Below are positions 18,811-39,277 of a stretch of DNA of 39,277 bases, piece after piece. The notes below the pieces were generated by a model. That model searched no databases and was not told the origin of the DNA. It was given only the letters and a program-made list of their open reading frames with translations. Where the stretch lies: assembly GCA_018000835.1 (NCBI GenBank), contig JAGNJD010000019.1, forward strand, positions 1 through 39,277, given 5' to 3'. The first letter of the stretch is position 1; each line of letters begins with the position of its first letter. The position numbers and the translations under genes were made by a program. The stretch is from Candidatus Goldiibacteriota bacterium. Lineage in GTDB: Bacteria; Oederibacteriota; PGYV01; DSYL01.

Positions 18811-18827
18811 TTTGTTTAAGGCGTTTT

Positions 18828-19024
18828 TATTGGAACAGCATTCATAAAATTTCTCAGTGAGATATTTTATGAATGCACACATTAAAAATGTTTTATCTAC
18901 TTTGCCAGGAGGGTTCCAAGGGAGCTGCGGAATATCACTGGTATTCCTCGTCCCCTGGTCAATCAACGAAGTTGATTGAATTTTTTGTGGGAGCATCGGG
19001 CTTTAGCCCGAGGGGTCCCACTCT
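18828..19024 (+). repeat. Modular structured repeat, copy A
   Basis: About 197 bases shared with 33956-34210 and 39153-39277. Pairing elements: outer helix TTGGAAC (18830-18836) with GTTCCAA (18913-18919); a long hairpin GCATTCATAAAAT (18838-18850) with its complement 18864-18876, extended by TCTC/GAGA; GGAATA/TATTCC around 18929-18947; TCAATCAAC/GTTGATTGA (18959-18979, loop GAA); and the terminal GTGGGA/TCCCAC helix enclosing TCGGGCT/AGCCCGA (18987-19021). Copy A lacks the CCCCAAACT hairpin found in B and C. It could be a structured RNA or a MITE/REP-like element. Confidence 0.85.
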
Positions 19025-19136
19025 GTCCATTGCTGTAGGGTAAATATAATGGAAGGATTGCTATGTTTTTTTGTAATGCGTGTCCTTTTCCTGCTTCCTA
19101 AAACTTATTGCAATGAATTTTAAAAAAATGCAATCA

Positions 19137-19163
19137 ATTCATTCATTCATTCATTCATTCATT
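19137..19163. repeat. ATTC tetranucleotide microsatellite
   Basis: Nearly seven uninterrupted copies of ATTC (27 bases) lie about 120 bases upstream of the radical SAM promoter. Such tracts can change length by slippage. It is intergenic, so any effect would be on expression. Confidence 0.9.
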
Positions 19164-19260
19164 GTAATTAATACCACCTGATTAAAAATTTTACAAAGTT
19201 CATAATTTAAAAGAACTTACATGAAATCCGTTTTTTTATAAGGCAGGATATTTTGGAATA

Positions 19261-19288
19261 TTGTAAAATTACGTTCATTTGATATAAT
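19261..19288 (+). promoter_or_regulatory. Promoter of the radical SAM gene
   Basis: TTGTAA (19261-19266) and a perfect TATAAT (19283-19288) are 16 bases apart and lie 46 bases before the start codon. Confidence 0.65.
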
Positions 19289-19334
19289 GTTTAACGGAAA
19301 CAATTTAAAAATCTGTGTGCGAGGATAAAAGTAA

Positions 19335-20696
19335 ATGAAAATTGTTTTTGTAATACCGGCTGCAGACATCAGACGAACGTTGCTTTACAGAATGGGTAAT
19401 AATTTTTATGGGCGTAAAAATCCCATAGTCGGACCATTAATATTGGCAAGCATTTTAAAAAAAGCAGGTCATACGGTTGAAGTTTATGAAGAATTATACG
19501 AAGATGTAAATTATTCAAAAATTTCCGATTGCGACGTGCTGGGAATATATACCATGACTTCCAACGTCCGCAGAGCATACGAAATGGCCGATTATTTCAG
19601 GAAAGAAAAAGAAAAAAGAGTCGTTATCGGTGGAATGCATGCATCTGTTATGCCGGAAGAAGCATCGCAACATGCAGACCAGGTTGTAGTAGGAGAGGCA
19701 GAAAATGTCATAGTAGACGTTATGGAAGGAAGAATCAAAGAAAAGATAGTATATGCCCGTCCGGTTAAGGACCTGGATACCATTCCGTTTCCGGATTATT
19801 CTTTATTAAAGACGCCGTGTAACGAAGCAAATGTTTTGACTACGAGGGGATGTTTGTTTAAATGTAACTTTTGCAGCACGTCAAGGATGTTTGACCCATT
19901 TAGGGCAAGAAGTCCAGAAAACGTCATTGAGGAGTTAAAAACGTATAAAAAGATGGGATTTAAATACATGAATTTTCAGGATGATAATTTTACGGCGGAT
20001 AAAGATAGAGCCAAAGCAATTCTTAGAAAAATGATAGAGAATAATCTTGCGTTTAGGGACACTTTTTTCTTTGGCAGGACTGACATTGCAAATGACCCCG
20101 AACTGCTGCAATTGTTGAGAGATGCAAATTTACGATGCGTTCTTGTCGGCATAGAATCACTGAATCAGGAATCCCTGAATTATATTAATAAAAAACAGGT
20201 AGTGGACGACATAAAAAGAGCAGGTGAAATGTTATATAAATATAAAATCAAACTTCTTGCAAGCCTTGTACTTGGACTTGATTATGACGGAAAAGAGGAA
20301 ATAAGGAAATCCGTTGAATTTTGTAAAAGCATAAATGCATATCAGTTACAGCCGGCAATTTTAACTCCTTATCCAAAAACGCCGATATACAAACAGTTTG
20401 AAGAAGAAAATAGAATCATAGTAAAGGATTGGCAATATTACGACATGATGACCGTCGTTTTTAAACCAAAAAAACTTACCCCATGGGAATTGCAGAAAGA
20501 ATTTTTCAATGCAGTAAAAAAGTTTTATTCTTTCCCGTCAATATTCAAAATATTCAGGATATTCGGTTTTAAGGCAGGCCTGAACAGAATCGGACTATGG
20601 TTCGTTACCAAATTTGGGATATTGTATAACGAAATAAAGGCAAACATTAATGATGGCAATGTATATAATTTTTTAAAAAATTACAAAGATTCATAA
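19335..20696 (+). CDS. B12-binding-domain radical SAM protein
   Basis: Protein of 453 residues. The N-terminal half (about 1-150) is a Rossmann-like cobalamin-binding-type domain (GPLILASILKKAGHTVEVYEE, VVIGGMHASVMPEE). The radical SAM domain follows, with the cluster motif CxxxCxxC at Cys173, Cys177 and Cys180 (GCLFKCNFC). The C-terminal 80 residues are helical. This is the architecture of the BchE/Mg-protoporphyrin cyclase and methyltransferase-like class; the substrate cannot be inferred. It has its own promoter and no co-directional biosynthetic neighbour, so it seems a stand-alone gene. A GAGGA ribosome site precedes the ATG. Confidence 0.9.
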   Translation: MKIVFVIPAADIRRTLLYRMGNNFYGRKNPIVGPLILASILKKAGHTVEVYEELYEDVNYSKISDCDVLGIYTMTSNVRRAYEMADYFRKEKEKRVVIGGMHASVMPEEASQHADQVVVGEAENVIVDVMEGRIKEKIVYARPVKDLDTIPFPDYSLLKTPCNEANVLTTRGCLFKCNFCSTSRMFDPFRARSPENVIEELKTYKKMGFKYMNFQDDNFTADKDRAKAILRKMIENNLAFRDTFFFGRTDIANDPELLQLLRDANLRCVLVGIESLNQESLNYINKKQVVDDIKRAGEMLYKYKIKLLASLVLGLDYDGKEEIRKSVEFCKSINAYQLQPAILTPYPKTPIYKQFEEENRIIVKDWQYYDMMTVVFKPKKLTPWELQKEFFNAVKKFYSFPSIFKIFRIFGFKAGLNRIGLWFVTKFGILYNEIKANINDGNVYNFLKNYKDS

Positions 20697-20765
20697 CATC
20701 ATAACCACAGAGTGCCTATAACAATATTTTACGAAATCTGACTTATGAAAGGGAGGTATTCTTTT

Positions 20766-20954
20766 ATGGAAAAAGAAGAGATAACGGAAAAAGAAAAACA
20801 AATGGCAGAAAAATGCGTTTCGTGTTCAATTTGTTCACAGGCAAGGAAAAATCAGAAGGGGTTTTCTTACGGTGCCGTAAAAATACTCAGAACGGTTTGT
20901 CCATACTGCAAGGCATATGAGAAGGTATATGGGAAAAAAGCATACGAACCATGA
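20766..20954 (+). CDS. Small cysteine-rich protein, unknown
   Basis: A 62-residue protein starting at 20766, chosen because GGGAGG lies about nine bases upstream; the in-frame ATG at 20745 precedes this site. The N-terminus is a Lys/Glu-rich helix. Five Cys at 17, 20, 23, 45 and 48 (CVSCSIC and CPYC) suggest binding of a metal, perhaps zinc. I know no family. It could be a small zinc-ribbon regulator or partner of the upstream radical SAM protein. Confidence 0.55.
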   Translation: MEKEEITEKEKQMAEKCVSCSICSQARKNQKGFSYGAVKILRTVCPYCKAYEKVYGKKAYEP

Positions 20955-21128
20955 TGTCGGGTTCTGAATCAGACGGATAATGTAATTTACGGTCAAAATG
21001 GCCGTACTGGATAACTTTTGAATTGCAGTGAAAAATGCCAAATTTTGATTTGCCTAAAATTAATTTTATGAAAATATAAATTAATTTTTTTAATTCATGA
21101 GAAAAAGGGAAATCCTGTTTTTAATTTA

Positions 21129-21157
21129 TTGCACCCGATATGATATTATTATATAAT
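21129..21157 (+). promoter_or_regulatory. Promoter of the ECF sigma operon
   Basis: TTGCAC (21129-21134) and TATAAT (21152-21157) are 17 bases apart, 55 bases before the sigma-factor start. It looks like a housekeeping promoter rather than an ECF autoregulated one. Confidence 0.65.
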
Positions 21158-21212
21158 TTTTAAGTGAGGAACAAAAATCATAAAATGGTGTCATAAAAAA
21201 GGAGAAACATAA

Positions 21213-21803
21213 TTGGACGATGAAAAGCAGTTAATACACCTGTCAAAAAATGGCGACAGGAAATCTTTTGACATGCTCGTTAAAAAATATGCGTCCCAGA
21301 TTTTTAATCTTGCGTATCGCTTATCTGGTAACAGAGACACGGCTCAGGACATAGCACAGGAATCTTTTATAAATGCTTATATCGGAATCAAAAATTTTGA
21401 GGAAAGAAGTTCTTTCCTGAGCTGGTTATACAGGATAACGATTAATTGCTGGAAAAACAAAGTGAGATATGAAAAAAGAAGATTTTTTTCCAGGCACGTT
21501 TCAATAGATGAAATGATAGAAACGGAAGATACGCCAATAAAACGGGACGTTATTTCAAAGGAAGAAGACGTCGTAAATAAGGTTGAAACAAAAATCCGTT
21601 CAGAAGAAGTACAAAAAATACTTGATACGCTGGATTACGAATCAAAAACCATAATAATTTTAAGAGATATTTTTGAAAAGGAATACGAAGAAATTTCTGA
21701 CATTATGAAAATACCGCTTGGAACCGTAAAGTCGAGATTGTCAAGGGCAAGACAGGAATTAAGGCAAAAAATTTCTTTTTTAATTGATGGTGAAAAAAAA
21801 TGA
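21213..21803 (+). CDS. ECF (RpoE-type) RNA polymerase sigma factor
   Basis: Protein of 196 residues from a TTG start with AAAGGAG upstream. Sigma region 2 spans about 20-92 (RDTAQDIAQESFINAY at 41-56 and FLSWLYRITIN at 68-78) and region 4 about 134-190 (EEISDIMKIPLGTVKSRLSRAR). Regions 1 and 3 are absent, as in ECF factors. The stop overlaps the start of a zinc-type anti-sigma gene by four bases (ATGA), so the pair is translationally coupled. It should respond to an envelope or redox signal sensed by that partner. Confidence 0.93.
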   Translation: MDDEKQLIHLSKNGDRKSFDMLVKKYASQIFNLAYRLSGNRDTAQDIAQESFINAYIGIKNFEERSSFLSWLYRITINCWKNKVRYEKRRFFSRHVSIDEMIETEDTPIKRDVISKEEDVVNKVETKIRSEEVQKILDTLDYESKTIIILRDIFEKEYEEISDIMKIPLGTVKSRLSRARQELRQKISFLIDGEKK

Positions 21804-22777
21804 AAAAGGAATGCAAAAAAGCAAGGGAATTTATAACTCTATTAATAGACAATAAAATAAGCGAAAATGATATGTTATGGCTTGATAAACACTTTTCTTC
21901 ATGCGTTGACTGTGAAAAAGAATTTAAAGAAGTTAAAAAAACGGTAAATTCTTTAAAAATTTTGAAAAATCAAAATGTCCCGTCAGATTTTTATTTCAAA
22001 TTAAATAAAGCAATTGATGAAATTGAAGCAGAAAGAAAAAATAAAGTTTTTTTTCCTAATGTTCAGGTTGCTTTCAGGACGGGTCTGATTTTTGCCGTAG
22101 TTATTCTGGGCGTAGTTGTTACCATGAGCGTTGTAAAAAACAATCAAAAATTCGTTTCTTATGGCACAGAAAAGGAAAAAACAACGGAATTCGCCGAAGT
22201 TCACCAGGTGGATAATGTATCAATGAATAAAGATAAAATTCAGATTGATGATGAACCCTTGAATTCCGCCGTTGTTAAAAAAACATTGACGATACCTTCT
22301 TCCGAATATGCAAAAATTAAATATGAAACAGCATCGATGCCTTTTAATCTCATATCAAGCGGCGGTTCGTATCATAAAGATATGACGACAAATAACCGGA
22401 TTTATATGCAACCCATACCTGCAAAAAATTATTACGATTTAAATCAGAAACAAATACAGGACGAATTTGATTATAGAGTATATGGCTTTGTAGTTGATAA
22501 CAAGGGGATGTGGGAAAAAATCAGGGGGGAATACAATATAGAAGAATTCCCTGAAATTGATTTCCAGTCAGAAATGATGATTCTGGTAATCGCCAGGGAT
22601 AATTTTTCTCTGAAAATAGTTAAAGCATTTAAAGAAGTCAACGAAATAATCGTATTATACAGGATTGACAAATTAAACGATGAAAAATTTGTAAATGTTT
22701 CCGGGAATTCAAAAAATTATGACTTTAAAGTAATTAATAAGACGCAATTACCCGTTGTTTTTAAAAGAGCTGAATAA
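21800..22777 (+). CDS. Zinc-type (ZAS) transmembrane anti-sigma factor
   Basis: Protein of 325 residues. The cytoplasmic N-terminus carries the zinc-binding anti-sigma motif H31-x3-C35-x2-C38 (HFSSCVDC). One membrane helix (about 93-112) follows, then a periplasmic region of more than 200 residues. Its last 90 residues (WEKIRGEYNIEEFPEIDFQ and LPVVFKRAE) resemble the PrcB C-terminal fold, though I hold this loosely. It should bind and inhibit the upstream sigma factor and release it on signal. The large extracytoplasmic part is longer than in simple ZAS proteins and may be the sensor. Confidence 0.82.
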   Translation: MKKECKKAREFITLLIDNKISENDMLWLDKHFSSCVDCEKEFKEVKKTVNSLKILKNQNVPSDFYFKLNKAIDEIEAERKNKVFFPNVQVAFRTGLIFAVVILGVVVTMSVVKNNQKFVSYGTEKEKTTEFAEVHQVDNVSMNKDKIQIDDEPLNSAVVKKTLTIPSSEYAKIKYETASMPFNLISSGGSYHKDMTTNNRIYMQPIPAKNYYDLNQKQIQDEFDYRVYGFVVDNKGMWEKIRGEYNIEEFPEIDFQSEMMILVIARDNFSLKIVKAFKEVNEIIVLYRIDKLNDEKFVNVSGNSKNYDFKVINKTQLPVVFKRAE

Positions 22778-22781
22778 ACTG

Positions 22782-23423
22782 ATGAATGATATTTTTAGTA
22801 ACATAAAAAATGAAGCAAAAAAATATTTATCATCGTCAAAAAATTCGCATAATTGGGACCATACGGAAAGAGTTTTAAAACTTGCTTTGCATATTGCTAA
22901 AAAAGAAAAAGCGGACGTTTTTATCGTTAAAATGGCTACGCTTTTGCATGACATTGGACGTCTCGCGGAAGATGATTCAAACGGAGAAATAAATCATGCC
23001 ATATATGGCGCTGAATTAGCGGAAAAAATTCTAAAAAAACATAAAATTGAAAAGAATGAAATTAAAAAAATAGTGCATTGCATTAAAGCACATCGTTTCC
23101 GTGGCAAAACAAAACCAGAAACAAAAGAAGCAAAATGTTTGTTTGATGCAGACAAACTTGATTCAATTGGCGCCGTTGGAATAGGAAGAGCATTTTTATT
23201 TGCGGGGGAAATCGGCGCCATATTGCATAATAAAAACTTAAACGTAAAAAAGACAAAGCCGTATACAAGCGAAGATACCGCATACAGAGAATACATGGTT
23301 AAATTAAGATACGTAAAATCCGGAATGTTAACAAAAGAAGGAAAGCGGATTGCAAGCGGCAGGGATGCCTTTATGAAAAAATTTTTTTTAAGATTTTGTA
23401 AAGAAGTTAAAGGTAAAGCTTAA
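22782..23423 (+). CDS. HD-domain hydrolase (YedJ-like)
   Basis: Starting at the ATG 22782 gives 213 residues; a TTG at 22755 inside the previous gene is an alternative. Metal-binding HD residues are visible: NWDHTERV near 20-27, LLHDIGRL near 50-57, CIKAHRF near 89-95 and the family signature DADKLDSIGAVGIGRAF near 112-128. This matches the YedJ subgroup of metal-dependent phosphohydrolases, probably acting on nucleotides; the substrate is unknown. It starts 4 bases after the anti-sigma stop, so it belongs to the sigma operon. Confidence 0.88.
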   Translation: MNDIFSNIKNEAKKYLSSSKNSHNWDHTERVLKLALHIAKKEKADVFIVKMATLLHDIGRLAEDDSNGEINHAIYGAELAEKILKKHKIEKNEIKKIVHCIKAHRFRGKTKPETKEAKCLFDADKLDSIGAVGIGRAFLFAGEIGAILHNKNLNVKKTKPYTSEDTAYREYMVKLRYVKSGMLTKEGKRIASGRDAFMKKFFLRFCKEVKGKA

Positions 23424-23450
23424 CAGGTTGCCAAAAAATTAAAAAACATA

Positions 23451-23479
23451 TTTACAATACGACTTTTTTAATATATAAT
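23451..23479 (+). promoter_or_regulatory. Promoter of the response-regulator pair
   Basis: TTTACA (23451-23456) and a perfect TATAAT (23474-23479) are 17 bases apart, 100 bases before the response-regulator start. Confidence 0.65.
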
Positions 23480-23578
23480 ATGCCGTAATAAAATATTGAT
23501 AAAGGGAAAATTTCTAATAATAAAGAAAAATTTTATGTTATGAACGAATGATAAAATCGCATTAAAGGAAGGTAAATT

Positions 23579-24025
23579 ATGGAAAACGAAAAATCAAAAA
23601 ATGTGTTGCTGATTGAGGATAACAAAGCAGACGTCCGGCTAATAACTGAAGCTCTTACAAGTTTTAATACCAGAAAAAACGTATATAATGTAAGTAACGG
23701 CATTGAAGCTATGCATTTTCTCAGGCAACAAGAGGAATATAAAAATTTTCCCAGACCCGACATTATTATTCTGGATTTGAATTTGCCTGGTAAGAATGGT
23801 TTCGAAATATTGAAAGAAATAAAGGAAGATGAAAGAACGAAAAAGATACCCGTCGTCGTTTTATCCGTATCCAACTCATCCGATGACATTGATAAATCGT
23901 ATCTGTTGCAGGCAAATTGTTACATAACAAAATCCATGAATCTGGATGATTTTATAAAAGACGTAAAAAAGATAGACGATTTCTGGCTTAATTCTGTGCG
24001 ACTGCCAGGAGAATTTTTTAACTAA
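23579..24025 (+). CDS. Stand-alone response regulator (Rcp1-like receiver)
   Basis: Protein of 148 residues made of one receiver domain. The acidic pair is E13-D14 (LLIEDN), the phosphoacceptor Asp66 (ILDLNLPGKNG) and the conserved Lys118 (ITKS). The insertion after helix 2 (QQEEYKNFPRP) and the spacing match Rcp1-type regulators, which are partners of phytochrome-like or hybrid kinases. No output domain is present, so it acts through protein contacts or phosphotransfer. The REC-kinase gene follows 31 bases downstream. AAGGAAGG precedes the ATG. Confidence 0.92.
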   Translation: MENEKSKNVLLIEDNKADVRLITEALTSFNTRKNVYNVSNGIEAMHFLRQQEEYKNFPRPDIIILDLNLPGKNGFEILKEIKEDERTKKIPVVVLSVSNSSDDIDKSYLLQANCYITKSMNLDDFIKDVKKIDDFWLNSVRLPGEFFN

Positions 24026-24056
24026 TTATTGTAAAAATTTTTTGGGGCGGGGCAAA

Positions 24057-25148
24057 ATGGAAAAAAAACATATTAAGGTTTTGTTGATAGAAGATAATCC
24101 AGGCGACGTTAGATTGATATGGGAGATTTTATCCGAAGTAAGAGATTCGCCTTTTTATCTAAACGTTGCAGATACCTTGTTAAAAGGTTTGCAAGAAATA
24201 GAAAAATCCAAACCGGACGTTATTTTGCTTGATTTAACATTGCCGGATTCAAACGGAATATATACGTTAAACAGGGTTCGTGATAAAGTAAAAGACATCC
24301 CCATAGTCGTTATTACCGGCTATGATGATGAAATAATTGCCATTCAGTCCTTAAAGGAGGGTGCACAGGATTATCTTGTAAAAGGTAGAACCGATGCCGA
24401 TTTACTGAAACGTGCATTATTATATGCCATGGAAAGGAATAGATTATTGCTTGAAATAGACAAAAAGGATAAAATAAGGAAAGATTTTATTACTATGGTT
24501 TTGCATGAAATTATAATACCAACAAGCATAATAAAAACGGCTATGTGGATGTGTGATAAAAAGGAGATAATTGCCAAAGAAGATGCAAAAAAAATCATGG
24601 ACATTGTTTTAGGCAACACTTCAAAGATATTTAATTTTTTGGACGACTTGATAAACGTGGCAGAACTTGAATCAGGTACATTTTTGATAGCAAAAAAACA
24701 AACGGATTTAAATGATTTGTTAAAAAAAACCATAAAAGACATTTATCCGTTTGCACAGGAAAAATCAATACAAATAATCAACGAAACTGAAGAACAAAAA
24801 ATTGAGGCAGAAATAGATCCGGTTAGAATTTCGCAGGTAATTACGGCATTATTATTAAATGCAATAAAATATTCGGAAGAAAAAAAAGAAATAAAGGCCG
24901 GAATAAAAAACGAAAAAAACAATTTTGTTTTATATATAAAAGATGAAGGCACTGGAATTTCCAGGAAAGACGTTGACGAGGTTTTTAATAAATTTTTTTC
25001 TTCTTCAGAAGAAAATGAAAGAAGCCCCAAAATAGGACTTGGCCTCCTTATTGCAAAAAAAATTGTTTCTGCTCATAATGGAAAAATATCCGTCGAATCT
25101 GACGGCATAAAAAAAGGTTCTATATTCAAAATATTCCTTCCTAAATAA
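24057..25148 (+). CDS. Histidine kinase with N-terminal receiver domain
   Basis: Protein of 363 residues from the ATG at 24057; a TTG at 24042 would add five residues. Receiver domain 1-125 has E12-D13, phosphoacceptor Asp59 (LLDLTLPDSNG) and Lys109. The HisKA dimerisation helix carries His150 in VLHEIIIPTSII, a diverged H-box (usual form HELRTPL). The HATPase domain has N-box LLLNAIKYSEE, G1 DEGTGIS and G2 GLGLLIAKKIV. There is no membrane or other sensor domain, so the receiver is the only visible input. It probably works in a phosphorelay with the upstream regulator. Confidence 0.9.
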   Translation: MEKKHIKVLLIEDNPGDVRLIWEILSEVRDSPFYLNVADTLLKGLQEIEKSKPDVILLDLTLPDSNGIYTLNRVRDKVKDIPIVVITGYDDEIIAIQSLKEGAQDYLVKGRTDADLLKRALLYAMERNRLLLEIDKKDKIRKDFITMVLHEIIIPTSIIKTAMWMCDKKEIIAKEDAKKIMDIVLGNTSKIFNFLDDLINVAELESGTFLIAKKQTDLNDLLKKTIKDIYPFAQEKSIQIINETEEQKIEAEIDPVRISQVITALLLNAIKYSEEKKEIKAGIKNEKNNFVLYIKDEGTGISRKDVDEVFNKFFSSSEENERSPKIGLGLLIAKKIVSAHNGKISVESDGIKKGSIFKIFLPK

Positions 25149-25220
25149 TGCGGTAATAATGCGACGTTCCTGAAGCGAGAGATCAATAAAGATAAAAGTA
25201 TTTTGGAAGGAATATGTTAT

Positions 25221-25250
25221 GCTGTTTTTTATCCCCGGGTAACAGCCGCA
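25221..25250 (+). terminator. Possible weak terminator after the kinase gene
   Basis: GCTGTT (25221-25226) and AACAGC (25241-25246) form a 6-bp stem with a 14-base loop, followed by CGCATTTTATTT. The stem is short, so this is tentative. Confidence 0.3.
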
Positions 25251-25319
25251 TTTTATTTATAATTGTATTTTTTTTATTTTGGTTAAAATAAACAATATGT
25301 CATTCTGAAAGGAGGTATA

Positions 25320-26144
25320 ATGGAATTAACCAAAAATGATTTTATAAAGGCAATAAAAACGTCCGGACTTTCAGGAAAATGCGTGTGCGTTCATTCTTCC
25401 ATACAATCTTTTATGACAGACATAAAAGGAGGAATTAATACGATTATTCAGTCGTTTATTGAGAGTGGATGCACATTACTGGTGCCTACGTTTTCTTTTC
25501 ATGCTTTTACCGTAAAACCGCCTGAAAATATGAGGCCCGAACGTAACGGCATTGACTATAAAAAGATTGAATTTTTAAATTTTGAAAATAAAAATTTTTT
25601 TACGAAAGCATGCAATGAAATTGACAGGGATAAAATGGGTTTATTACCCTGTGAGGTTTTAAAAAACAACAAAAGGGAAAGAGGCGAACATCCTCTTTGT
25701 TCTTTTTCTGCATTGGGTCCTTTTGCAAAAGATCTGATAAAAGGGCAGAAATACATGGACGTTTTTGCCCCCTTACGTGAACTTGCCCTTTTTGAAGGAT
25801 ACGTCGTTTTAATGGGCGTTGACCTTAACAGAATGACACTTTTACATCTTGCAGAACAAATGGCAGGCAGAAGAATGTTTTTGCGATGGGCAAATGACAG
25901 CAGCGGAAATCCTGTTTATGCGGAAGCAGGAGGCTGTTCGGAAGGATTTGTTAACATGACACCATATCTTTCTGTTTTTGAAAAACAGATTTTTGTAGGA
26001 AAAAGTAAATGGAGAATATACAGCGTTCCAAAGGTTCTAAAACAGGCGGCAAAAGTCATAACGTCAATGCCGGAGATAACAAGATGTGCAGATAATGAAT
26101 GCGTAAGATGTGAAGATGCAATAAAAGGCGGACCAAAGATATAG
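25320..26144 (+). CDS. AAC(3)-family N-acetyltransferase-like protein
   Basis: Protein of 274 residues, usual for the antibiotic N-acetyltransferase (AAC(3)) fold. Recognisable: VHSSIQSF near 22-29, GGINTIIQSFIESGCTLLVPTFSF near 39-62, the HPLCSFSALGPFAKDL segment near 123-138 and VVLMGVDLNRMTLLHLAEQ near 162-180. AAC(3) enzymes acetylate aminoglycosides with acetyl-CoA, but many chromosomal members act on other amines. Four Cys near the C-terminus (CADNECVRC and upstream) are unusual. A consensus AAAGGAGG site precedes the ATG. With no resistance or biosynthesis neighbours the substrate is open. Confidence 0.82.
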   Translation: MELTKNDFIKAIKTSGLSGKCVCVHSSIQSFMTDIKGGINTIIQSFIESGCTLLVPTFSFHAFTVKPPENMRPERNGIDYKKIEFLNFENKNFFTKACNEIDRDKMGLLPCEVLKNNKRERGEHPLCSFSALGPFAKDLIKGQKYMDVFAPLRELALFEGYVVLMGVDLNRMTLLHLAEQMAGRRMFLRWANDSSGNPVYAEAGGCSEGFVNMTPYLSVFEKQIFVGKSKWRIYSVPKVLKQAAKVITSMPEITRCADNECVRCEDAIKGGPKI

Positions 26145-26221
26145 GATAATTATAAGAGAAAAGACGTTGTTTAACGTTAAATTCAGATTGCGAGAAAAAA
26201 TAAAATAATTACAAAAGGGAT

Positions 26222-27320: not shown

Positions 27321-27338
27321 AATTAAAGGAAAGTAAAA

Positions 27339-30108: not shown

Positions 30109-30118
30109 GGTATAAAAG

Positions 30119-31869: not shown

Positions 31870-31881
31870 TTTAAATCCTTT

Positions 31882-32889
31882 TTATAACGCATCTGCATTT
31901 GAGGATGCATTTATGGATTCTATTTTTATATTTTGTAAATCATTTTCCATAACGTTAAAATTAACGTTTAGTAATTTTTCAGCGGCTTCAACCAGGGATA
32001 AAGCGTCAATTTTATGTTCTTTCATAAGATACTGTTTTGATGCCCCGTGGGAAAACGTATCTTTTATTCCAAGTTTTATTATTTTTTTATTTATTCCGCA
32101 TTCAACCATTTTTTCGCATATTATAGTTCCAAGGCCGCCTGTCGTTGAATGATTTTCCATGGTTATTATTCCATATTTCGGTTTTGCTAAAATGTCAGGC
32201 ATTAATTTATTATTAAAAGGTTTTAATGTTGAAATGTGAACGTGGGTAATGCTTAATCCTTTGTTTGTCAGAGCATGGATGGCTTTTATTGCCTCCTCCG
32301 TGCATATACCGCTCGAAAAAACTGCGATATCACTGCCGTTGGATAAAATCTTTGGAACGTCTAATTTAAATCCGGATTCTTTTGCAAATAACCTTGGTAT
32401 TTTTCCGCGTAACATCCTTACATAAACGGGACCGTTTATGTCATAAATCAGGTCAAGCACGTTTTCAACTTCTGTTGCATCCCCGCATTCCAATATGGTC
32501 ATATTCGGCAGGGAACGCATTACGGATATGTCTTCTATTGCCTGATGAGTTGCCCCGCCAGGTGATGTAATGCCCGGTAAAAACCCCAACATTTTTACGG
32601 GTAAACATGGATATGCAACGGACATTGCAATCTGGTCGTAGGCCCGCCTGTAAATGAATACTGCAAAGGTATGCACAAGAGGGATGAACCCTTCACGGGC
32701 CAGTCCGCCTGCAACGCTTAACATGTTTTGTTCAGCAATTCCGCAGGATATGAATCTGTCGGGATATGCACCTGAAAAACCGTCTGCCTCACAGGAACCG
32801 GTTAAATCAGCCGATAATACGAGTATTTCTTTTTTGTTTTTCGACCATCCGACAAGATTTTTATGATGAACCTTTTCCAGTATTTCCAT
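31882..32889 (-). CDS. Transketolase, C-terminal subunit
   Basis: Protein of 335 residues covering the pyrimidine-binding and C-terminal domains of transketolase. The family signature GIAEQNMLSVAGGLAREGF lies near 47-65, including the catalytic Glu. TSPGGATHQAIEDISVMRSLPNM and the regulatory domain opening (SNGSDIAVFSSG near 185-196) follow. It pairs with the N-terminal subunit encoded 1 base upstream. Such split transketolases are common in archaea and some bacteria; some act on unusual sugar phosphates. AAAGGAACG precedes the ATG. Confidence 0.92.
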   Translation of the reverse strand: MEILEKVHHKNLVGWSKNKKEILVLSADLTGSCEADGFSGAYPDRFISCGIAEQNMLSVAGGLAREGFIPLVHTFAVFIYRRAYDQIAMSVAYPCLPVKMLGFLPGITSPGGATHQAIEDISVMRSLPNMTILECGDATEVENVLDLIYDINGPVYVRMLRGKIPRLFAKESGFKLDVPKILSNGSDIAVFSSGICTEEAIKAIHALTNKGLSITHVHISTLKPFNNKLMPDILAKPKYGIITMENHSTTGGLGTIICEKMVECGINKKIIKLGIKDTFSHGASKQYLMKEHKIDALSLVEAAEKLLNVNFNVMENDLQNIKIESINASSNADAL

Positions 32890-32890
32890 A

Positions 32891-33808
32891 TTACGTTCCT
32901 TTATCCATTTTTTTCAGCAATTCTTCATATTCAATTTTCTCTTCCTCGCTTTTAAATCCTACGTAATGTAATTTTAGATAGTGTTTTTTTAAGATTTCAA
33001 TTCCCTGGCATGGATTGGTTTCGGCAATTATGAAAAGAGGCTTGTCTTTTACGATTATGTCGGCTCTGTTTGCGAGTTCATTTACGTTATGTCCGTATAC
33101 TTTAAAAACTGCAGTGCCAAAAGCCTCCAGTCGTTTTTCAAGAGGCTCAATTCGCATTACGTCGTTTACGTTACCATCACATTGCTGCTTGTTTGAATCA
33201 ACGATGACTTTTACGTTATCAAGTTTATGGAAAGAGATGAATTGTATTGCTTCCCAGACCTGGCCTATCTGAAATTCACCGTCAGACATTAAAATCCATA
33301 CAATCCCTTTTTCTTTTTTTAATTTTTTTCCCAGCGCAATGCCTGCTGCCTGGCTAATACCCTGGCCTAAAGAACCGGTCATAACTTCCATGCCCGGCGA
33401 ATGTTCTGCGCCTATCATTTCAACGGATGATCCGTCTTTGTTAAAAAGTTCGAGGCAGTTTTCATCAAGCCGTTGTGTTTCTATCAGGCAGGCATAAAGA
33501 GCAAGTGAATAATGAGCAGGGGATAAAATAAAGCGGTCGTAATTTTTGTTTATTCCGCCGTTATAAAACGTTCCCCTGAAATAATTTTTATTGTCAGGGG
33601 AGGGAACGCCGGGAAAAGGAGGCGGAGATATTGGTTTTTCAGGTTTATTTAAGTTCATGAGTTTTACGTATAAAGTCGCAAGTATTTCGGCAGATGAACA
33701 TGCCTGGCTTAAATAACCGCCGTTGTTTTTTATGGTGTATTCAAGAACCCGTTTTCTGATTCCATTTGCAACTTTTTTAACTTTATCCTGCCAGTTATCA
33801 GGCGTCAA
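32891..33808 (-). CDS. Transketolase, N-terminal (TPP-binding) subunit
   Basis: Protein of 305 residues from a TTG start with AAAGGAG upstream. It has the thiamine diphosphate motif, S175-D-G177 to N206 (MSDGEFQIGQVWEA and IVDSNKQQ), MTGSLGQGISQAAGIALG near 143-160, and LSPAHYSLALYA near 95-106, where the usual GH is AH. A Pro-rich insertion (PISPPPFPGVPSPDN near 59-73) is unusual. With the downstream C-terminal subunit it forms a complete two-carbon ketol transferase. First gene of the minus-strand operon. Confidence 0.92.
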   Translation of the reverse strand: MTPDNWQDKVKKVANGIRKRVLEYTIKNNGGYLSQACSSAEILATLYVKLMNLNKPEKPISPPPFPGVPSPDNKNYFRGTFYNGGINKNYDRFILSPAHYSLALYACLIETQRLDENCLELFNKDGSSVEMIGAEHSPGMEVMTGSLGQGISQAAGIALGKKLKKEKGIVWILMSDGEFQIGQVWEAIQFISFHKLDNVKVIVDSNKQQCDGNVNDVMRIEPLEKRLEAFGTAVFKVYGHNVNELANRADIIVKDKPLFIIAETNPCQGIEILKKHYLKLHYVGFKSEEEKIEYEELLKKMDKGT

Positions 33809-33840
33809 AAATTTCTCCTTTAAAAAATGACATAGTAAAG

Positions 33841-33869
33841 AGTTTACAAATTTAATTACGTTATTTCAA
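33841..33869 (-). promoter_or_regulatory. Promoter of the transketolase/RuBisCO-like operon
   Basis: On the minus strand TTGAAA (complement of 33864-33869) and TAAACT (complement of 33841-33846) are 17 bases apart, 32 bases before the TTG start. Confidence 0.55.
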
Positions 33870-33955
33870 GTGTTTTTTCTTTATGATGCAGAAGCAGCAC
33901 CATAAGTTATCTGCTGTATGATTCGCACTAATAAACGTTAAGAATTTGTTTGTCG

Positions 33956-34210
33956 TTATTGGAACAGCATTCAGAAAACCCCAAACTTCAGTTTAGGGAA
34001 TAAAATATATCAGTGAGATATTTTATGAATGCACACATTAAAAATGTTTTATCTATTTTGCCAGGAGGGTTCCAGGGTCGCTGCGGAATATCACTGGTAT
34101 TCCTCGTCCCCTGGTCAATCAACGAAGTCCCGTAAAGAGAATTTCTACGGGACAAATTGATTAAATTTTTTGTGGGAGCCTCGGGCTTTAGCCCGAGGGG
34201 GTCCTACTCT
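33956..34210 (+). repeat. Modular structured repeat, copy B
   Basis: About 255 bases, the longest copy. Compared with copy A it has two extra helices: CCCCAAACT/AGTTTAGGG near 33979-33998 (one mismatch) and GTCCCGTA/TACGGGAC (34127-34134 and 34146-34153) inserted inside the TCAAT/ATTGA helix. The outer TTGGAAC (33959-33965) faces GTTCCAG (34069-34075), keeping a U-G pair at RNA level. The TCGGGCT/AGCCCGA terminal hairpin is intact. Confidence 0.85.
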
Positions 34211-34215
34211 ATCAA

Positions 34216-34312
34216 ATCCCCCTTCATCTCCCTTTTCCAAAGGGGGAAAAGAAGCAGAGTAATTTCCCCTCTTTGAAAAAGAGGGGACAGGGGAGATTTT
34301 ATTCAATCAAAT
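34216..34312. repeat. C-run/G-run hairpin repeat, second locus
   Basis: Contains CCTTTTCCAAAGG- and CCCCTCTTT/AAAGAGGGG-type hairpins followed by GACAGGGGAGATTTTATT, closely matching 13855-13928. The same AAGCAGAGTAA / AAGCAAAGTAA spacer lies between the hairpins. It directly follows structured repeat copy B. Confidence 0.8.
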
Positions 34313-34354
34313 CGCCCAACGACGAAAGAGAAGCAGAAAGCATAATATCGTTTC

Positions 34355-34382
34355 TTGACAAAAATAATAAATATGTTAATAT
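34355..34382 (+). promoter_or_regulatory. Sigma70-like promoter of the TPR-rsmI-spoVS operon
   Basis: TTGACA (34355-34360) and TAATAT (34377-34382) are 16 bases apart, 33 bases before the start codon. Confidence 0.75.
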
Positions 34383-34414
34383 TTAACAGTAAAAATAAAT
34401 ATCCGGAGGTTAAT

Positions 34415-35260
34415 ATGCATTATAAATATTTACTGGTTTTTTTGGGTTTGATAACATTGTTTTATGGCTGTGCAACAACCGGCTCGCATTATGAATACGG
34501 AATGCAGTATTATGAAGCAGGTAAACTTGATGAGGCAATTGAAGAATTTCAGGCATCAATTGCCATTAATCCTTCCGACCCTGTCGTGCATAAGGCACTT
34601 GCCGACGTCTTTGCGGATAAAGGTCTGATTTTTGAAGCAATAACGGAATGGGAAGTGGCTTTAAGATTAAAACCTAACTATGAAGAAGTAGCGGGAAAAC
34701 TTGAGGCTGCATATATGGCGCTTGCCAAAGACGAATATGACAGAGGTAAAATTAAAGACGCAATAGATTTGTGGTTAAGGACCATACAATTAAATCCAAA
34801 TAATTTAGAAGCACATAAAAGTTTGGGTCTTGCTTACATTGCAATCGGTGATAATTCTTCTGCCATACCAGAACTTGAATTCGTGGCAGGAAAAAATCCT
34901 ACCGACGACCTTGTTTATACAAAACTTGGCAAGGCCTATTTTACAATAGGCAACCTTGAAGCATCAGCAAGAGCTTATGAGGCACTGGTCAGGATAAAAC
35001 CAACGGATGCTCTTGCATATAACAATTTAGGCAGTATTTACATTAAAATGAAAAAATATCATGAAGCAGTGAGCGTATTGGAACAGGCAAAAAAACTCTC
35101 TCCGGACGAAGTGGTAATTTTAAACAATCTTGGCAGTGCATATTTTCACCTTAACGATTTTAAAAAAGCAAGAGAAGCATGGGCAAAAGTTATTGAAATC
35201 AAACCACTTGATAAAACGGCTCGGGAAAATTTAAAGACGCTTAACAATATGGGAGAATAA
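34415..35260 (+). CDS. TPR-repeat lipoprotein
   Basis: Starting at 34415 (CCGGAGG site) gives 281 residues with a lipoprotein signal ending at Cys19 (LFYGC). An in-frame ATG at 34355 would lie within the promoter. About seven tetratricopeptide repeats fill the mature protein (for example YEAGKLDEAIEEFQASIAINP and YHEAVSVLEQAKKLSPDEV), forming a protein-binding superhelix in the periplasm. First gene of a run of seven closely spaced genes ending at 38941. The partner is not known. Confidence 0.88.
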   Translation: MHYKYLLVFLGLITLFYGCATTGSHYEYGMQYYEAGKLDEAIEEFQASIAINPSDPVVHKALADVFADKGLIFEAITEWEVALRLKPNYEEVAGKLEAAYMALAKDEYDRGKIKDAIDLWLRTIQLNPNNLEAHKSLGLAYIAIGDNSSAIPELEFVAGKNPTDDLVYTKLGKAYFTIGNLEASARAYEALVRIKPTDALAYNNLGSIYIKMKKYHEAVSVLEQAKKLSPDEVVILNNLGSAYFHLNDFKKAREAWAKVIEIKPLDKTARENLKTLNNMGE

Positions 35261-35305
35261 AATTACATTTTTTTAAAATAATTTAATGCTTCTGGTGAAA
35301 AACAA

Positions 35306-36223
35306 GTGAATAAAAAAATTTTAACATTCTTTTTAAAATCTTTTGTTATCGTATGGATTTTCCTTGCGGGTTATTTAATATTTATTTCCCCCAAAGAATG
35401 GTGGCTTACAATACTCTTTTCATGCAATTTTTCATTGATGAGCGGATATGTCCTGTTTGGACCAACTGTTGCTTTAATAATAATGGCGGGAAATTTAATT
35501 ATAAATTTATTTGCAATATTCAGGGTAATGGCTCTTGGTTCAAGTTTACTGCCGTTTTTAATATCTATTGCTATTTTTGTTACCGTTTATTTACTTATGA
35601 AACAAAGTGATTCTGCAAGGCAATATAATTTATTTTCCTCACAGGATGAAATTAAAATGTTAGAGGGGGATACTACGATATTAATAAAGGAAGAAGAAAA
35701 TTTGTCAACGTCAATAAAAGCAAATAAAGAAAGACTGGAAAAATACAGAAAATTAAATGAAATTCAGGACGGCTTAAAGGACCATCAGGTTTTCAGCGGA
35801 AGAATAAGATACATATTACGGAACATTATTTCCATTTTTCATCAGGAAAAGTCAATAGTTTTATTCCTGTTGAAAGACGGCAGATTTTTAAGAGTAGAAG
35901 CTGATAAAAACGAAGATATGTTAATAGGAGAAAAGGACCAGGAAAGTTTATACCTTCAAAATTTTGACGAGTGGGTTAAAGTAAACAAAAAAGCATTAAT
36001 AATTTCCGACATGTATAAAGATATCAGATTTAAAACGGAAGATAAGGAAAATATCCGCTCTTTGATAAGCGTTCCCGTATTTATTAGAGACGAATTAGCC
36101 GGGGTTCTGAGAATTTCTTCTTATGAAGCAGAATGCTTTAATCAGGAGGATTTAAGATTTTTGGACCTTGTTGCTGAAATGATTGGGAAAATATTATCAA
36201 AGGAGATGGATTATGCCCGGTAA
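35306..36223 (+). CDS. Membrane protein with coiled coil and GAF domain
   Basis: Protein of 305 residues from a GTG start with a weak ribosome site. Residues about 8-100 hold three to four membrane helices. A coiled coil (about 105-152) then leads to a GAF domain (about 158-300; IRYILRNIISIFHQEKSIVLFLL, then ISVPVFIRDELAGVLRISS). There is no GGDEF, kinase or other output domain after the GAF, so it is not a standard PelD or sensor enzyme. The next gene, also membrane plus coiled coil, overlaps by 11 bases. Probably the two products interact; function unknown. Confidence 0.75.
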   Translation: MNKKILTFFLKSFVIVWIFLAGYLIFISPKEWWLTILFSCNFSLMSGYVLFGPTVALIIMAGNLIINLFAIFRVMALGSSLLPFLISIAIFVTVYLLMKQSDSARQYNLFSSQDEIKMLEGDTTILIKEEENLSTSIKANKERLEKYRKLNEIQDGLKDHQVFSGRIRYILRNIISIFHQEKSIVLFLLKDGRFLRVEADKNEDMLIGEKDQESLYLQNFDEWVKVNKKALIISDMYKDIRFKTEDKENIRSLISVPVFIRDELAGVLRISSYEAECFNQEDLRFLDLVAEMIGKILSKEMDYAR

Positions 36224-36671
36224 TAGAAATAAAAATACAATTATTATAATTTCTTTTATTTTAATAATCGTTAGCGTTTTTTTGACTTTTGTGACAAACG
36301 AAAGTAAATATTTTCATATCTGGTATCAGATTTTAATAATTCCTGTTATTTTGCTTTCCTTTTTCCTGTCAATAAAAGACGTCATAATTATCATTATGGT
36401 CGTATCCGGAGTTGTGTGGACGATGGGGTTCATGGGAAAAATAAATAACATTTATCAACTTTTATTTGAAACATTAATAATTATCATTTCTGCAATATCT
36501 TTAGGGTGGAATGAATTGTTATATAAAAAAGAAAGGGAAAAAATTGATACAGTAATAGATTATAAGAAAAAGCAAATAGAAGAAATGAAAAACAGAATAG
36601 ATGGTCTAAATAAAGAAAGCAATTTATTACTGGATGAAATAAAAAGCATAAAAAAACAACTGACGGATTAA
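36213..36671 (+). CDS. Small membrane protein with C-terminal coiled coil
   Basis: The ATG at 36213 follows AAAGGAG and gives 152 residues; the earlier in-frame ATG at 36183 lies in the preceding gene. It has two to four membrane helices within about 8-95, with almost no periplasmic loops, and a charged coiled coil at about 100-150 (KKKQIEEMKNRIDGLNKESN). Its layout mirrors the first half of the upstream GAF protein. No family is recognised. Confidence 0.65.
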   Translation: MPGNRNKNTIIIISFILIIVSVFLTFVTNESKYFHIWYQILIIPVILLSFFLSIKDVIIIIMVVSGVVWTMGFMGKINNIYQLLFETLIIIISAISLGWNELLYKKEREKIDTVIDYKKKQIEEMKNRIDGLNKESNLLLDEIKSIKKQLTD

Positions 36672-36673
36672 TA

Positions 36674-37516
36674 ATGAATAGCGGTAAGTTTTATATAATT
36701 CCAACCCCAATCGGAAATATGTCCGACATAACAATCAGGGCAATTGACGTTTTGAAAAAAAGTAATTTAATAATTGCCGAAGATACGCGTGTTACTCAAA
36801 AATTACTGAATCATTACCGGATAAAAACGAAATTAATTTCTTATCATAAATTTAACGAAGAAAAGAGAGTTCGTTTCATACTGGAATTGTTAAGCAATGG
36901 TAATGTTATTTCTCTCGTTTCCGATGCAGGAACGCCTCTCCTGTCTGACCCTGGTTTTATAATCACCAAAGAAGTAATAGAGAAAGGAATAAGTATGGAA
37001 GTTCTGCCCGGACCATCTTCGATATTACCTTCAATCCTGCTTTCAGGATTTAACCCGCAAAAATTTGTTTTTTATGGCTTTTTGGATAAGAAAGATTCAA
37101 AAAGGAAGCAGGAACTAATTGAAATAAGTAAAATTCCATACCCTGTCGTTATATTTGAATCACCGTTTAGAATTTTGAAATTGATGGAAGAAATTTTGGA
37201 ATTAATGGGAAACAGGGAGATTGCAGTTATAAAAGAATTAACAAAAATACACGAAAATGTTTTCCGTGGAAAAATAAACGAAGTTGTTCCTTTTTTAAAT
37301 AAGGAAAATTTAAAAGGTGAATTTGTCGTTGTAATAGGGCATTGTAATGAAGTGTATAAAAAACCGGACATAAGCATAGACGAATTAAGCAAAAAAATAA
37401 ATTACTACGTAAAAACAGGCAGAACAAGAAAAGAAATTGTCGGTATAATTTCAGATGAATTTGGATTAACGAGAAACGAAGCATATAAAGTTATACATAA
37501 TAAAACGGAGGTGTAA
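36674..37516 (+). CDS. rsmI: 16S rRNA 2'-O-ribose methyltransferase (C1402)
   Basis: Protein of 280 residues, the RsmI length. It has the tetrapyrrole-methylase-like fold signatures: YIIPTPIGNMSDITIRAIDVL near 6-26, IIAEDTRVTQKLL near 33-45, LVSDAGTPLLSDPG near 82-95 and EVLPGPSSILPS near 109-120. It uses SAM to methylate C1402 of 16S rRNA in the decoding centre. It starts 2 bases after the preceding stop. spoVS follows 1 base after its own stop. Confidence 0.96.
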   Translation: MNSGKFYIIPTPIGNMSDITIRAIDVLKKSNLIIAEDTRVTQKLLNHYRIKTKLISYHKFNEEKRVRFILELLSNGNVISLVSDAGTPLLSDPGFIITKEVIEKGISMEVLPGPSSILPSILLSGFNPQKFVFYGFLDKKDSKRKQELIEISKIPYPVVIFESPFRILKLMEEILELMGNREIAVIKELTKIHENVFRGKINEVVPFLNKENLKGEFVVVIGHCNEVYKKPDISIDELSKKINYYVKTGRTRKEIVGIISDEFGLTRNEAYKVIHNKTEV

Positions 37517-37517
37517 G

Positions 37518-37793
37518 ATGGAAACGGTAAAACTAAAAGTTGCATCAGGAAGCGACCCTAAATCAGTTGCTGGTGCAATTTCAAATAACATAAGAGAAAA
37601 AAAACAGATAGAAATTATTGCAATGGGACCGGCAGCCGTAAATCAGACCATGAAATCAATCGCAATAGCAAGGGAATATTTATCAGATGAAAAAGTAGAT
37701 GTCCTGTGCAGGCCTGAATTTATGCACATAGAACTTGATGGAGAACAAAAAAGTGCAATCAAGTTTACGATATTAACGATGCCGCTGAGATAA
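37518..37793 (+). CDS. spoVS: Stage V sporulation protein S homologue
   Basis: Protein of 91 residues, the exact family size. SpoVS signatures are visible: LKVASGSDPKSVAGAISNNI near 5-24, IEIIAMGPAAVNQTMKSIAIARE near 30-52 and HIELDGEQKSAIKFTI near 72-87. The fold is Alba-like and may bind nucleic acid. In Bacillus it affects sporulation, but it is also found in non-sporulating bacteria such as Deinococcus and spirochaetes. A CGGAGGTG ribosome site precedes the ATG. Confidence 0.95.
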   Translation: METVKLKVASGSDPKSVAGAISNNIREKKQIEIIAMGPAAVNQTMKSIAIAREYLSDEKVDVLCRPEFMHIELDGEQKSAIKFTILTMPLR

Positions 37794-37826
37794 AACGTTT
37801 TATTGTTTCAAAGGAGAATTGCAACC

Positions 37827-38213
37827 ATGATTTTAAATAAAAAAAATTGTTTAATAATTTTAATTTGCATTATTTTTTTTTGTAGTTGTGCTTCAGTGCC
37901 CCCCATGAAAAAATTAACTTATGAGGAAATAAAAAAGCAGGAGATTGAAAAGCAGGCATTATTAATTAAAATAATAGGAACTTTTGCAGGAACGGCATTG
38001 GGTGGGACCATCGGCATTATTTCTGCACCGGAAAATGGAGCATTAAACGGAGCATTCGCAGGATGTCTTATTGGTGGATTGGCAGGTTTTGGTTTAAGTT
38101 ATTTAATATCCGAAAATTTAAAACCGGGAGAAAATACTCCGAAACCGGATACTCCCAATGCGGAAGAATATTTTAATGATTACAGGAACATTCAACTAAA
38201 AGATAAAAAATGA
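37827..38213 (+). CDS. Small glycine-zipper lipoprotein
   Basis: The ATG at 37827 (AAAGGAG upstream) gives 128 residues. The signal peptide ends at Cys21 (FFCSC) and is probably lipidated. A charged segment (KKQEIEKQ) is followed by a Gly-rich hydrophobic zipper (GTFAGTALGGTIGIISAP and GAFAGCLIGGLAGFGLSY, about 57-97). It overlaps the next gene by four bases (ATGA). Similar in style to the 9485 and 10227 proteins, but lipidated. Function unknown. Confidence 0.65.
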   Translation: MILNKKNCLIILICIIFFCSCASVPPMKKLTYEEIKKQEIEKQALLIKIIGTFAGTALGGTIGIISAPENGALNGAFAGCLIGGLAGFGLSYLISENLKPGENTPKPDTPNAEEYFNDYRNIQLKDKK

Positions 38214-38941
38214 AAAAAAATAAGGTTCCTAAAAAATTAAAATTTGTTTTTTTGTTTATTTTATTAATAATGTTTTTTACGTCCATGTTTTTTTATAAAC
38301 AAATGACGGCGAAACCGCCGGATGTATTTATTCAAAAACCCATAAATAAAGTCCGTCTGCCGTCCGGCAGCAGGATGAAAATACCATCCGGCTTTACTGC
38401 GTTTGAATCAAAAATAAGCAATGCAATGAATTATAGTTTTGTGCAATACGTACCGGAGTGGAAAAATAATAATTTTGTAAAAATAGATTTAACGGTAATC
38501 AACAGAAAATACTTAAACGTTGACGCTAAAAAGTTCGGACAATCCGGCTTTGATTTTGACGAAAAAATAATACAACCAAAGGTAAATTTATCAGATGAAC
38601 TAAAAAAATTACGGGGACAATCCAATGAAGATGGACAAATTTATGATGTTGATTATTCCGGTTTTAAGCCGCAATATGCAATTAATGGAACAATTAATAA
38701 TAGAACATGGCGGAGGTATACTCTTCAATCTTACGAAATTCAGGAAGATGGCAAAACAACGCTGATAAAATTATGGAATAATTTATATACGATATATAAG
38801 GATTATGTTTATATTTTTGATTACGTCTGCTATGCCGGAACAAAAGTTAAAAATAATAAATATGGCGACGAATATTCGGAAAGTGCAAATGGAATTGACA
38901 AATTTGCACAGGAACTTATTTTGAGTATTGAATTTAAATAA
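38210..38941 (+). CDS. Membrane-anchored protein of unknown function
   Basis: Protein of 243 residues with a basic N-terminus and one membrane helix (about 11-30). The rest is extracytoplasmic with beta-strand patterns; VRLPSGSRMKIPSGF near 48-62 opens the domain. It ends with an aromatic residue-lysine (LSIEFK). Its start overlaps the lipoprotein gene, so it is the last member of the operon. I do not recognise a family. Confidence 0.6.
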   Translation: MKKNKVPKKLKFVFLFILLIMFFTSMFFYKQMTAKPPDVFIQKPINKVRLPSGSRMKIPSGFTAFESKISNAMNYSFVQYVPEWKNNNFVKIDLTVINRKYLNVDAKKFGQSGFDFDEKIIQPKVNLSDELKKLRGQSNEDGQIYDVDYSGFKPQYAINGTINNRTWRRYTLQSYEIQEDGKTTLIKLWNNLYTIYKDYVYIFDYVCYAGTKVKNNKYGDEYSESANGIDKFAQELILSIEFK

Positions 38942-39115
38942 AATGTCCTTTTAAGGTCATATTTTGTCCGATTTGGCACATCTGATTTTTTATGAATTCA
39001 AAAAATCATTGAAAAATAAGAGTAATATTAACTGGCATGAACATTGCTATTTAAAAGTAAGGAAAGTGCCTGTAAAAGGTAAAAATGTTCTTTTTAGGAA
39101 TATCACATCGCCACC

Positions 39116-39149
39116 ACAAAAAGCATACCAATTATGGTATGCTTTTTGT
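39116..39149. terminator. Strong bidirectional terminator hairpin
   Basis: A perfect 15-bp stem (ACAAAAAGCATACCA, loop ATTA, complement) has A-rich and T-rich flanks, so it can end transcription in both directions. Structured repeat copy C begins about four bases later. Confidence 0.88.
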
Positions 39150-39152
39150 ATT

Positions 39153-39277
39153 TTATTGGAACAGCATTCAGAAAACCCCAAACTTCAGTTTGGGGAATAA
39201 AATATCTCAGTGAGATATTTTATGAATGCACACATTAAAAATGTTTTATCTACTTTGCCAAGAGGGTTCCAAGGTCG
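39153..39277 (+). repeat. Modular structured repeat, copy C (cut by window end)
   Basis: Contains the outer helix TTGGAAC (39156-39162) with GTTCCAA (39266-39272), a perfect CCCCAAACT/AGTTTGGGG hairpin, the AAAATATCTCA/TGAGATATTTT hairpin and GCATTCA/TGAATGC. The right part (GGAATA, TCAAT and TCGGGCT helices of copies A and B) lies beyond the window. Confidence 0.85.

Follow-up and report, generated by a model that had tools for sequence, protein, structure and literature searches.

The DNA analysed here, hereafter the window, comprises all 39,277 nucleotides of contig C12 of the draft genome G000, from a Candidatus Goldiibacteriota bacterium (G000:C12:1-39277; the draft holds 2,318,936 bases in 74 contigs and is 94.5% complete). 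The window carries three copies, A, B and C, of a strongly folding repeat element, which were confirmed to be intergenic and in one orientation, as a preliminary description of this DNA had reported. With the TTATT in front of each copy included, the exact limits were 18827-19022 for A, 33956-34208 for B and 39153-39277 for C, all on the plus strand. Copy C looks short because the contig stops inside it, and it is not a shorter type. The absence of a protein gene from these copies, also claimed earlier, was confirmed: in 40 aligned copies the longest start-to-stop frame had 27-58 codons, and it switched strand and frame from copy to copy.

Complete copies in G000 started with TTATTGGAAC and ended with a GTGG-tagged hairpin closing with CACT. 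This right hairpin resembles repetitive extragenic palindromes (REPs), and the likeness that the preliminary description had seen in the last hairpin was thus borne out. At the left end, TTATT is followed by GGAAC, which pairs as helix H1 with GTTCCA. Helix H2 (GCATTC/GAATGC) surrounds H3 (CCCCAAAC/GTTTGGGG) and/or the AT-rich H4, and a centre, TTTTATCTACTTTGCCARGAG, comes next. On the 3' side of the centre lie H5, in a long or a short form, then H6 (TCAATCAAC/GTTGATTGA) with an optional H7 in its loop, and finally H8, which is the GTGG-tagged right hairpin, followed by T. The pairing of TTGGAAC with GTTCCAA that had been described for all three window copies was found in A and C, while in B the partner was GTTCCAG, giving one T-G pair.

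By alignment and module composition, copy A (18832-19022) has the form H2-H4-H5long, without H3 and H7. Its TTATT occupies 18827-18831, its left hairpin (GCATTC...GAATGC) 18838-18876, its invariant centre (TTTTATCTACTTTGCCAGGAG) 18891-18911 and its right hairpin, ending in CACT, 18987-19022. Copy B (33961-34208; L001:1517-1769 in the alignment) has the full form H2-H3-H4-H5long-H7, with TTATT at 33956-33960, a branched left hairpin of H2 enclosing H3 and H4 at 33967-34032, a centre with one mismatch at 34047-34067 and a right hairpin ending in TACT at 34172-34208. The H7 of copy B is CCCGTA/TACGGG. Copy C (39158-39277) follows a TTATT at 39153-39157; it contains H3, and its centre lies at 39244-39264. 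The centres and the right hairpins were located by pattern search, and the left and right hairpins of A and B also appeared in the DNA fold. Each TTATT is read as target sequence, a role suggested by the empty site of another copy described below. When folded as single-stranded DNA, copy B gave z = -5.2 and copy A z = -9.0, and in neither case did any of 200 shuffles fold as low.

A genome search with the repeat, which the preliminary description had proposed, revealed a family far larger than three copies. At up to three mismatches, the centre had 55 sites in G000 (reversed control, 0), the left end 58 (control, 9) and the right hairpin 48 (control, 0). Copy B as a query gave at least 61 matching pieces, the best 40 of 101 candidates having been scored. 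Neither the fold nor the centre motif is thus due to chance, and the family has no fewer than 55 copies, whose ends are constant. The 55 centre sites consist of 52 distinct sites, L009 (whose core equals that of L008) and window copies A and C; both ends were found by pattern in 37 of the 52. Furthermore, eight contigs (C7, C10, C11, C12, C42, C56, C62 and C65) start or end inside a copy, and the true copy number is therefore likely above 55. The alignment comprised 37 copies from G000 and three from G009, a genome that belongs to the same order but to another family; of the 37 sites with both ends, L028 and the minus-strand copy of L025 were omitted, and L009 and copy A were added. Including TTATT, the aligned copies measured 181-255 nt in G000 and 175-214 nt in G009. 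Pairwise identity among the G000 copies was 81.2-99.6% (median 91.5%), and across all 40 aligned copies H2, H3, H4, the form of H5 and H7 occurred in 10 combinations. A minimal copy, at C15:33845-33910, had the left arm and H8 only.

The insertion site was resolved at copy L007, which sits within a second dispersed repeat family common in G000, here called F2. The joined flanks of L007, with TTATT at the left, matched F2 without a gap or an extra base at the junction in four distinct places: L022, L055 (= L108), L067 and window 19095-19138 (also in L088). In three of these four alignments there was one gap farther to the right. Because the flanks align exactly at the junction, TTATT was part of the target and the insertion caused no duplication, although a one-base T ambiguity remains; the target-site duplication sought in line with the preliminary description was thus absent from this site. 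In 46 copies, the five TTATT positions were kept in 45, 45, 45, 46 and 46, the extraction pattern itself having contained TTATT. Among 38 joins of flanks, four reading frames ran across the junction, and this frame test gave no second clean empty site. At L053, the element lies within the last codons of a gene that we take to be lipoyl-synthase-like.

The outer ends of F2 read ...TTAATGGAAGGATTG... and, by eye, are alike in the inverse sense. F2 was seen at window 19023-19138, near 37110, and in L007, L015, L022, L055, L056 and L067; several copies of the element lie inside it, and it has no strand bias of its own. A second site within F2 (CAATTTATTACGAAAA) was filled by forms that have the left end of the element, end in ...TTTTATAATT and lack H8 (L010, L056 and L067; partly L063 and L065). 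A third short repeat, of CCCCTTTTCCAAAGGGG-type palindromes, occurs at window 13834-13985 and 34208-34303, where it abuts copy B.

Orientation was scored in 41 stretches totalling 750 kb, chosen around copies, and copies on one contig are not independent. The top strand of the element lay on the strand of positive GC skew (the G-rich strand) in 46 of 55 copies (p = 4e-7). In the same stretches, three F2 motifs served as a control and ran along the G-rich strand in 9/20, 8/17 and 3/7 cases; the element differed from the first of them with a Fisher p of 0.002. The third short repeat gave 28/43 (p = 0.07). Three of the nine dissenting copies (L056, L067 and the minus-strand copy in L025) lie within F2. 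Called frames were on the G-rich strand in 530 of 625 cases. In 44 of the 55 copies, frames were called on either side; of these, copies between two G-rich-strand genes ran along the G-rich strand 27 times against 3, those between convergent or divergent genes 8 times against 5, and those between two genes of the other strand once against none.

These data bear on the view that the element is an ordinary miniature inverted-repeat transposable element (MITE), moved by a DDE transposase acting on terminal inverted repeats. The two ends are slightly alike, with at least 7 matches in 15 in 27 of 40 copies compared with 244 of 2000 shuffles, and two odd copies, L069 and L076, end in CCAATAA, the inverse of TTATTGG. 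A strong terminal inverted repeat, which a MITE should possess, was not found in the 40 aligned copies. Moreover, the empty site had no duplication beyond the ambiguous T, and the element is strand-biased whereas the MITE-like F2 is not. We regard this origin as very improbable.

The distribution of the element was narrow. The centre was found in two of 45 genomes of the phylum, G000 and G009, and was missing from both same-genus genomes searched; in the DNA search of 40 relatives, no more than the best 18 candidates per genome were scored. The exact centre had no match in viral contigs. A search of GTDB contigs returned seven stretches, four of which lacked the element by eye. Copies of G000 and G009 had a median identity of 75.2%. 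Between the two consensus sequences, the first 10 columns (10/10), the centre (20/20), H6 (19/21) and H8 (37/41) were well kept, and the left arm (32/44), the linker (7/15) and H5 (10/22) had diverged. In G009, some further features were seen: in L036, a copy of the element is interrupted at about 1380-1790 by a different insert, whose ends read GTAATAGTTCAGCCAC...GGCCAAACTATTAC, with a seeming 8-base flanking duplication, ACTTTACC, by eye; and the right hairpin of L039 has several tandem GAGCCTCGGGCTCCAT-like units.

The helices were kept with some changes on both sides. In G009, H2 is GTGTTC/GAACAC and H3 is CACCAAAC/GTTTGGTG, and H5 reads CCAGAGAG/CTCTCTGG in L034 (G009) compared with CCAAGGGAG/CTCCCTTGG in L061 (G000); outer H5 pairs were lost in L038 and L039 (G009). 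Over the 40 rows, 92.0% of helix cells were paired, compared with 33-49% in slid controls. Cells with a two-sided change numbered 19 (shuffle mean 6.3; none of 500 shuffles had as many), and the covariation score was above all 500 shuffles. The compensatory changes that the preliminary description had proposed to look for were thus found in part, as two-sided changes between G000 and G009 with the folds retained, and the family is neither limited to three copies nor devoid of such changes. Taken together, the alignment gives moderate support to conservation of the folds across two families, coming mainly from the split between the two genomes. G-T and A-C helix cells were equal (93 each), so these data are silent on which strand folds.

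Conserved folding might also be expected of a structured RNA or 3'-untranslated-region element, such as a terminator, an RNA-stability element or a regulatory RNA, spread by copying and kept for its RNA function. The invariant 20-nt centre and the two-sided changes are compatible with this. In addition, among copies with an upstream frame, 38 of 43 on the G-rich strand and 4 of 8 on the other lie 3' of a gene of the same direction. The structured-RNA reading, which the preliminary description had offered as an alternative, nevertheless gained no positive support: G-T cells were not in excess of A-C cells, and there was no Rfam match, the window giving none at the gathering score and a search of four copies with E up to 5 giving only a neighbouring tRNA and matches far under the gathering score. 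Furthermore, the 10 module combinations and the truncated copies suggest tolerance of change, and the element is missing from both same-genus genomes. Since insertion after TTATT was exact, a mobile-DNA step would be needed even under this explanation, which we consider quite improbable.

The responsible enzyme was sought among the Y1 transposases. A Y1 family model matched some genes in 12 of 16 genomes searched; in G000 it found two, both broken, and in G009 it found nothing. No intact Y1 gene was found in G000 or in G009 (84% complete). Pieces of the two G000 remnants reached 16.6 of 55 bits with an IS200 model and 19.6 of 80 bits with a model of REP-associated transposases. The REP-associated transposase suggested earlier was accordingly not recovered, as no intact gene was found in the two carrier drafts and the G000 fragment is far under the model cut-off. 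No gene framed by both element ends was found at the 10 stray-end places examined in G000. The element's end palindromes were also not found around the examined Y1 genes, which cover part of the relatives' loci, or at stray ends in the incomplete G000 assembly, and no examined Y1 locus had both ends in its flanks. In L031, a single REP-like hairpin lies some 0.5 kb away from a Y1 remnant, and L121, L126 and L128 each have one TTATTGGAAC-like word at one mismatch. With regard to TnpB omega-RNA elements, a search confined to TnpB models found no TnpB in G000 and a zinc-ribbon fragment in G009. A Y2 transposase family model gave no matches, and its control genomes gave none either, which leaves this negative without weight. 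At L079 (G000:C11:35500-40317), a broken IS200-like remnant lies at 2100-2540 with its own CCCACATCTTCAGATGGGG hairpin downstream and with ends unlike those of the element.

In relatives, a Y1 gene of G005 scored 74.1 of 80 bits with the REP-associated model and has seven flanking hairpins, three of which share the core ACTTCAGT with H3. L129 (G005) at 1100-2130 presents a REP-associated-type transposase gene with seven GC-rich hairpins, a typical REPtron-like layout. G003 and G008, which have open-frame Y1 genes, contain three GGTAG-tagged hairpins each, with the core CGGGCTTTAGCCCG of H8. These core likenesses to H3 and H8 are short and no more than suggestive.

The element could alternatively be a product of a REP-associated tyrosine transposase (RAYT), similar to REP doublets forming hairpins (REPINs) or to bacterial interspersed mosaic elements (BIMEs), with the right hairpin as the REP and the remainder carried along. 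The GTGG tag and the CACT end of the right hairpin, the G000 remnant nearest to the REP-associated model and the hairpins of the same core in relatives of the order agree with this, and REPINs too are reported, in PMC3116915, to show compensatory changes. There is, however, a single REP-like hairpin per element with a different left end, instead of two inverted REPs; at most a few right hairpins stand alone in G000 (e.g., C51:51159); and the combination of a constant TTATT on the 5' side and an exact empty site is the pattern of IS200/IS605. We consider this explanation unlikely.

Palindrome-associated transposable elements (PATEs) of Haloquadratum have a transposase-less length, palindromes near the ends, no duplication and a 5' targeting oligonucleotide from the target (PMC3119063). 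Likewise, the present element is too short for a transposase, retains TTATT from the target without duplication (at one site, with four comparators) and has palindromes near both ends (H2/H3/H4 at the left, H8 at the right). It differs from PATEs in its conserved modular interior, invariant centre and REP-like right hairpin, and a parent IS605-type element sharing its ends was not recovered. These three PATE features agree with the element and none of those tested failed, the ends showing no strong inverted repeat but a weak excess of matches over shuffles; the REPIN class fails on paired REPs. Insertion of IS200/IS605 elements takes place 3' of a tetra- or pentanucleotide and produces no duplication (PMC7290912), and their orientation follows the direction of replication (PMC5371812). 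The element shares with IS608 and ISDra2 the fixed short 5' target, the lack of duplication, the end hairpins and the one-strand orientation, and differs in having neither tnpA nor tnpB and in the target TTATT. Y1 enzymes that cut REPs rely on a GTAG or GTGG tag, a palindrome and CT/CA sites (PMC8266576). The right hairpin similarly has a GTRG-tagged palindrome with CT/CA on its 3' side, as in REPs, REPINs and RAYTs (PMC3116915, PMC3733652, PMC8266576), its GTGG being a variant of the REP tag GTAG. Unlike a REPIN, the element has further hairpins, a fixed 5' target and a left end without a GTRG-tagged inverse copy. It is therefore named PATE-like with a REP-like right end, on account of the fixed 5' target without duplication, the end hairpins, the one-strand orientation and the features of REP-cutting Y1 enzymes.

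On this basis, we regard the repeat as a mobile element of about 175-255 bases that has no transposase of its own and is probably moved in folded single-stranded form. The enzyme, supplied in trans, would be a Y1 (HUH) transposase, either IS200/IS605-like or REP-associated. Such a Y1 enzyme would cut after TTATT at the left and beside the GTGG-tagged hairpin at the right, and insertion would take place in the lagging-strand template. The centre would most likely be bound by the transposase or by some host factor. Optional hairpins appear to be gained and lost inside other hairpins with the ends undisturbed, which would be expected if the fold, the ends and the centre are selected. The earlier proposal of a non-autonomous element with its transposase elsewhere is partly supported: it agrees with the dispersed copies, the exact empty site, the GTGG-tagged palindrome of the right end and the strand-biased orientation, and fails as to a duplication and the finding of an intact transposase.

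Several results weigh against this single-strand interpretation. Neither an intact Y1 gene nor a gene between both ends was recovered, a clean empty site was obtained for only one of 38 joined copies (the 37 others having no such comparator), and the simple model leaves the H8-less forms at the second F2 site unexplained. Strand bias is inseparable here from gene direction. Two weak measures of covariation were also less favourable: 40 of 500 shuffles had at least as many as the eight pairs with two-sided change, and 445 of 500 at least as many as the 35 further pair types. Moreover, the model does not foresee a centre conserved at 20/20 positions, and a plain PATE could do without the similarity between its ends. 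These last two are accounted for only as binding sites, and they are the main reasons why the rival explanations stay alive.

Elements of this general kind are already known. For the combination of these ends with exchangeable hairpins and an invariant centre, no description was found in the literature searched, including that on snowflake-like repeats. It is a tentative and rather doubtful suggestion that the family represents a new type of single-strand parasite, selected for the folded form of its single strand, with exchangeable hairpins around an invariant 20-nt recognition centre, an IS200/IS605-like left end with TTATT as target and a REP-like right end, bridging two worlds of Y1 transposases. 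Since the only Y1 genes found in G000 are broken, the family may now be stranded there. The spread of REP-like hairpins is still poorly understood, according to PMC8266576. The present element, which ends in such a hairpin on one side and has a fixed target, a strand-biased orientation and an exact empty site, opens a link between REPs and IS200/IS605 transposition to direct tests. Its copies also offer natural variation in a large folded single strand, with hairpin modules present or absent, from which the needs of a single-strand transposase may be learnt.

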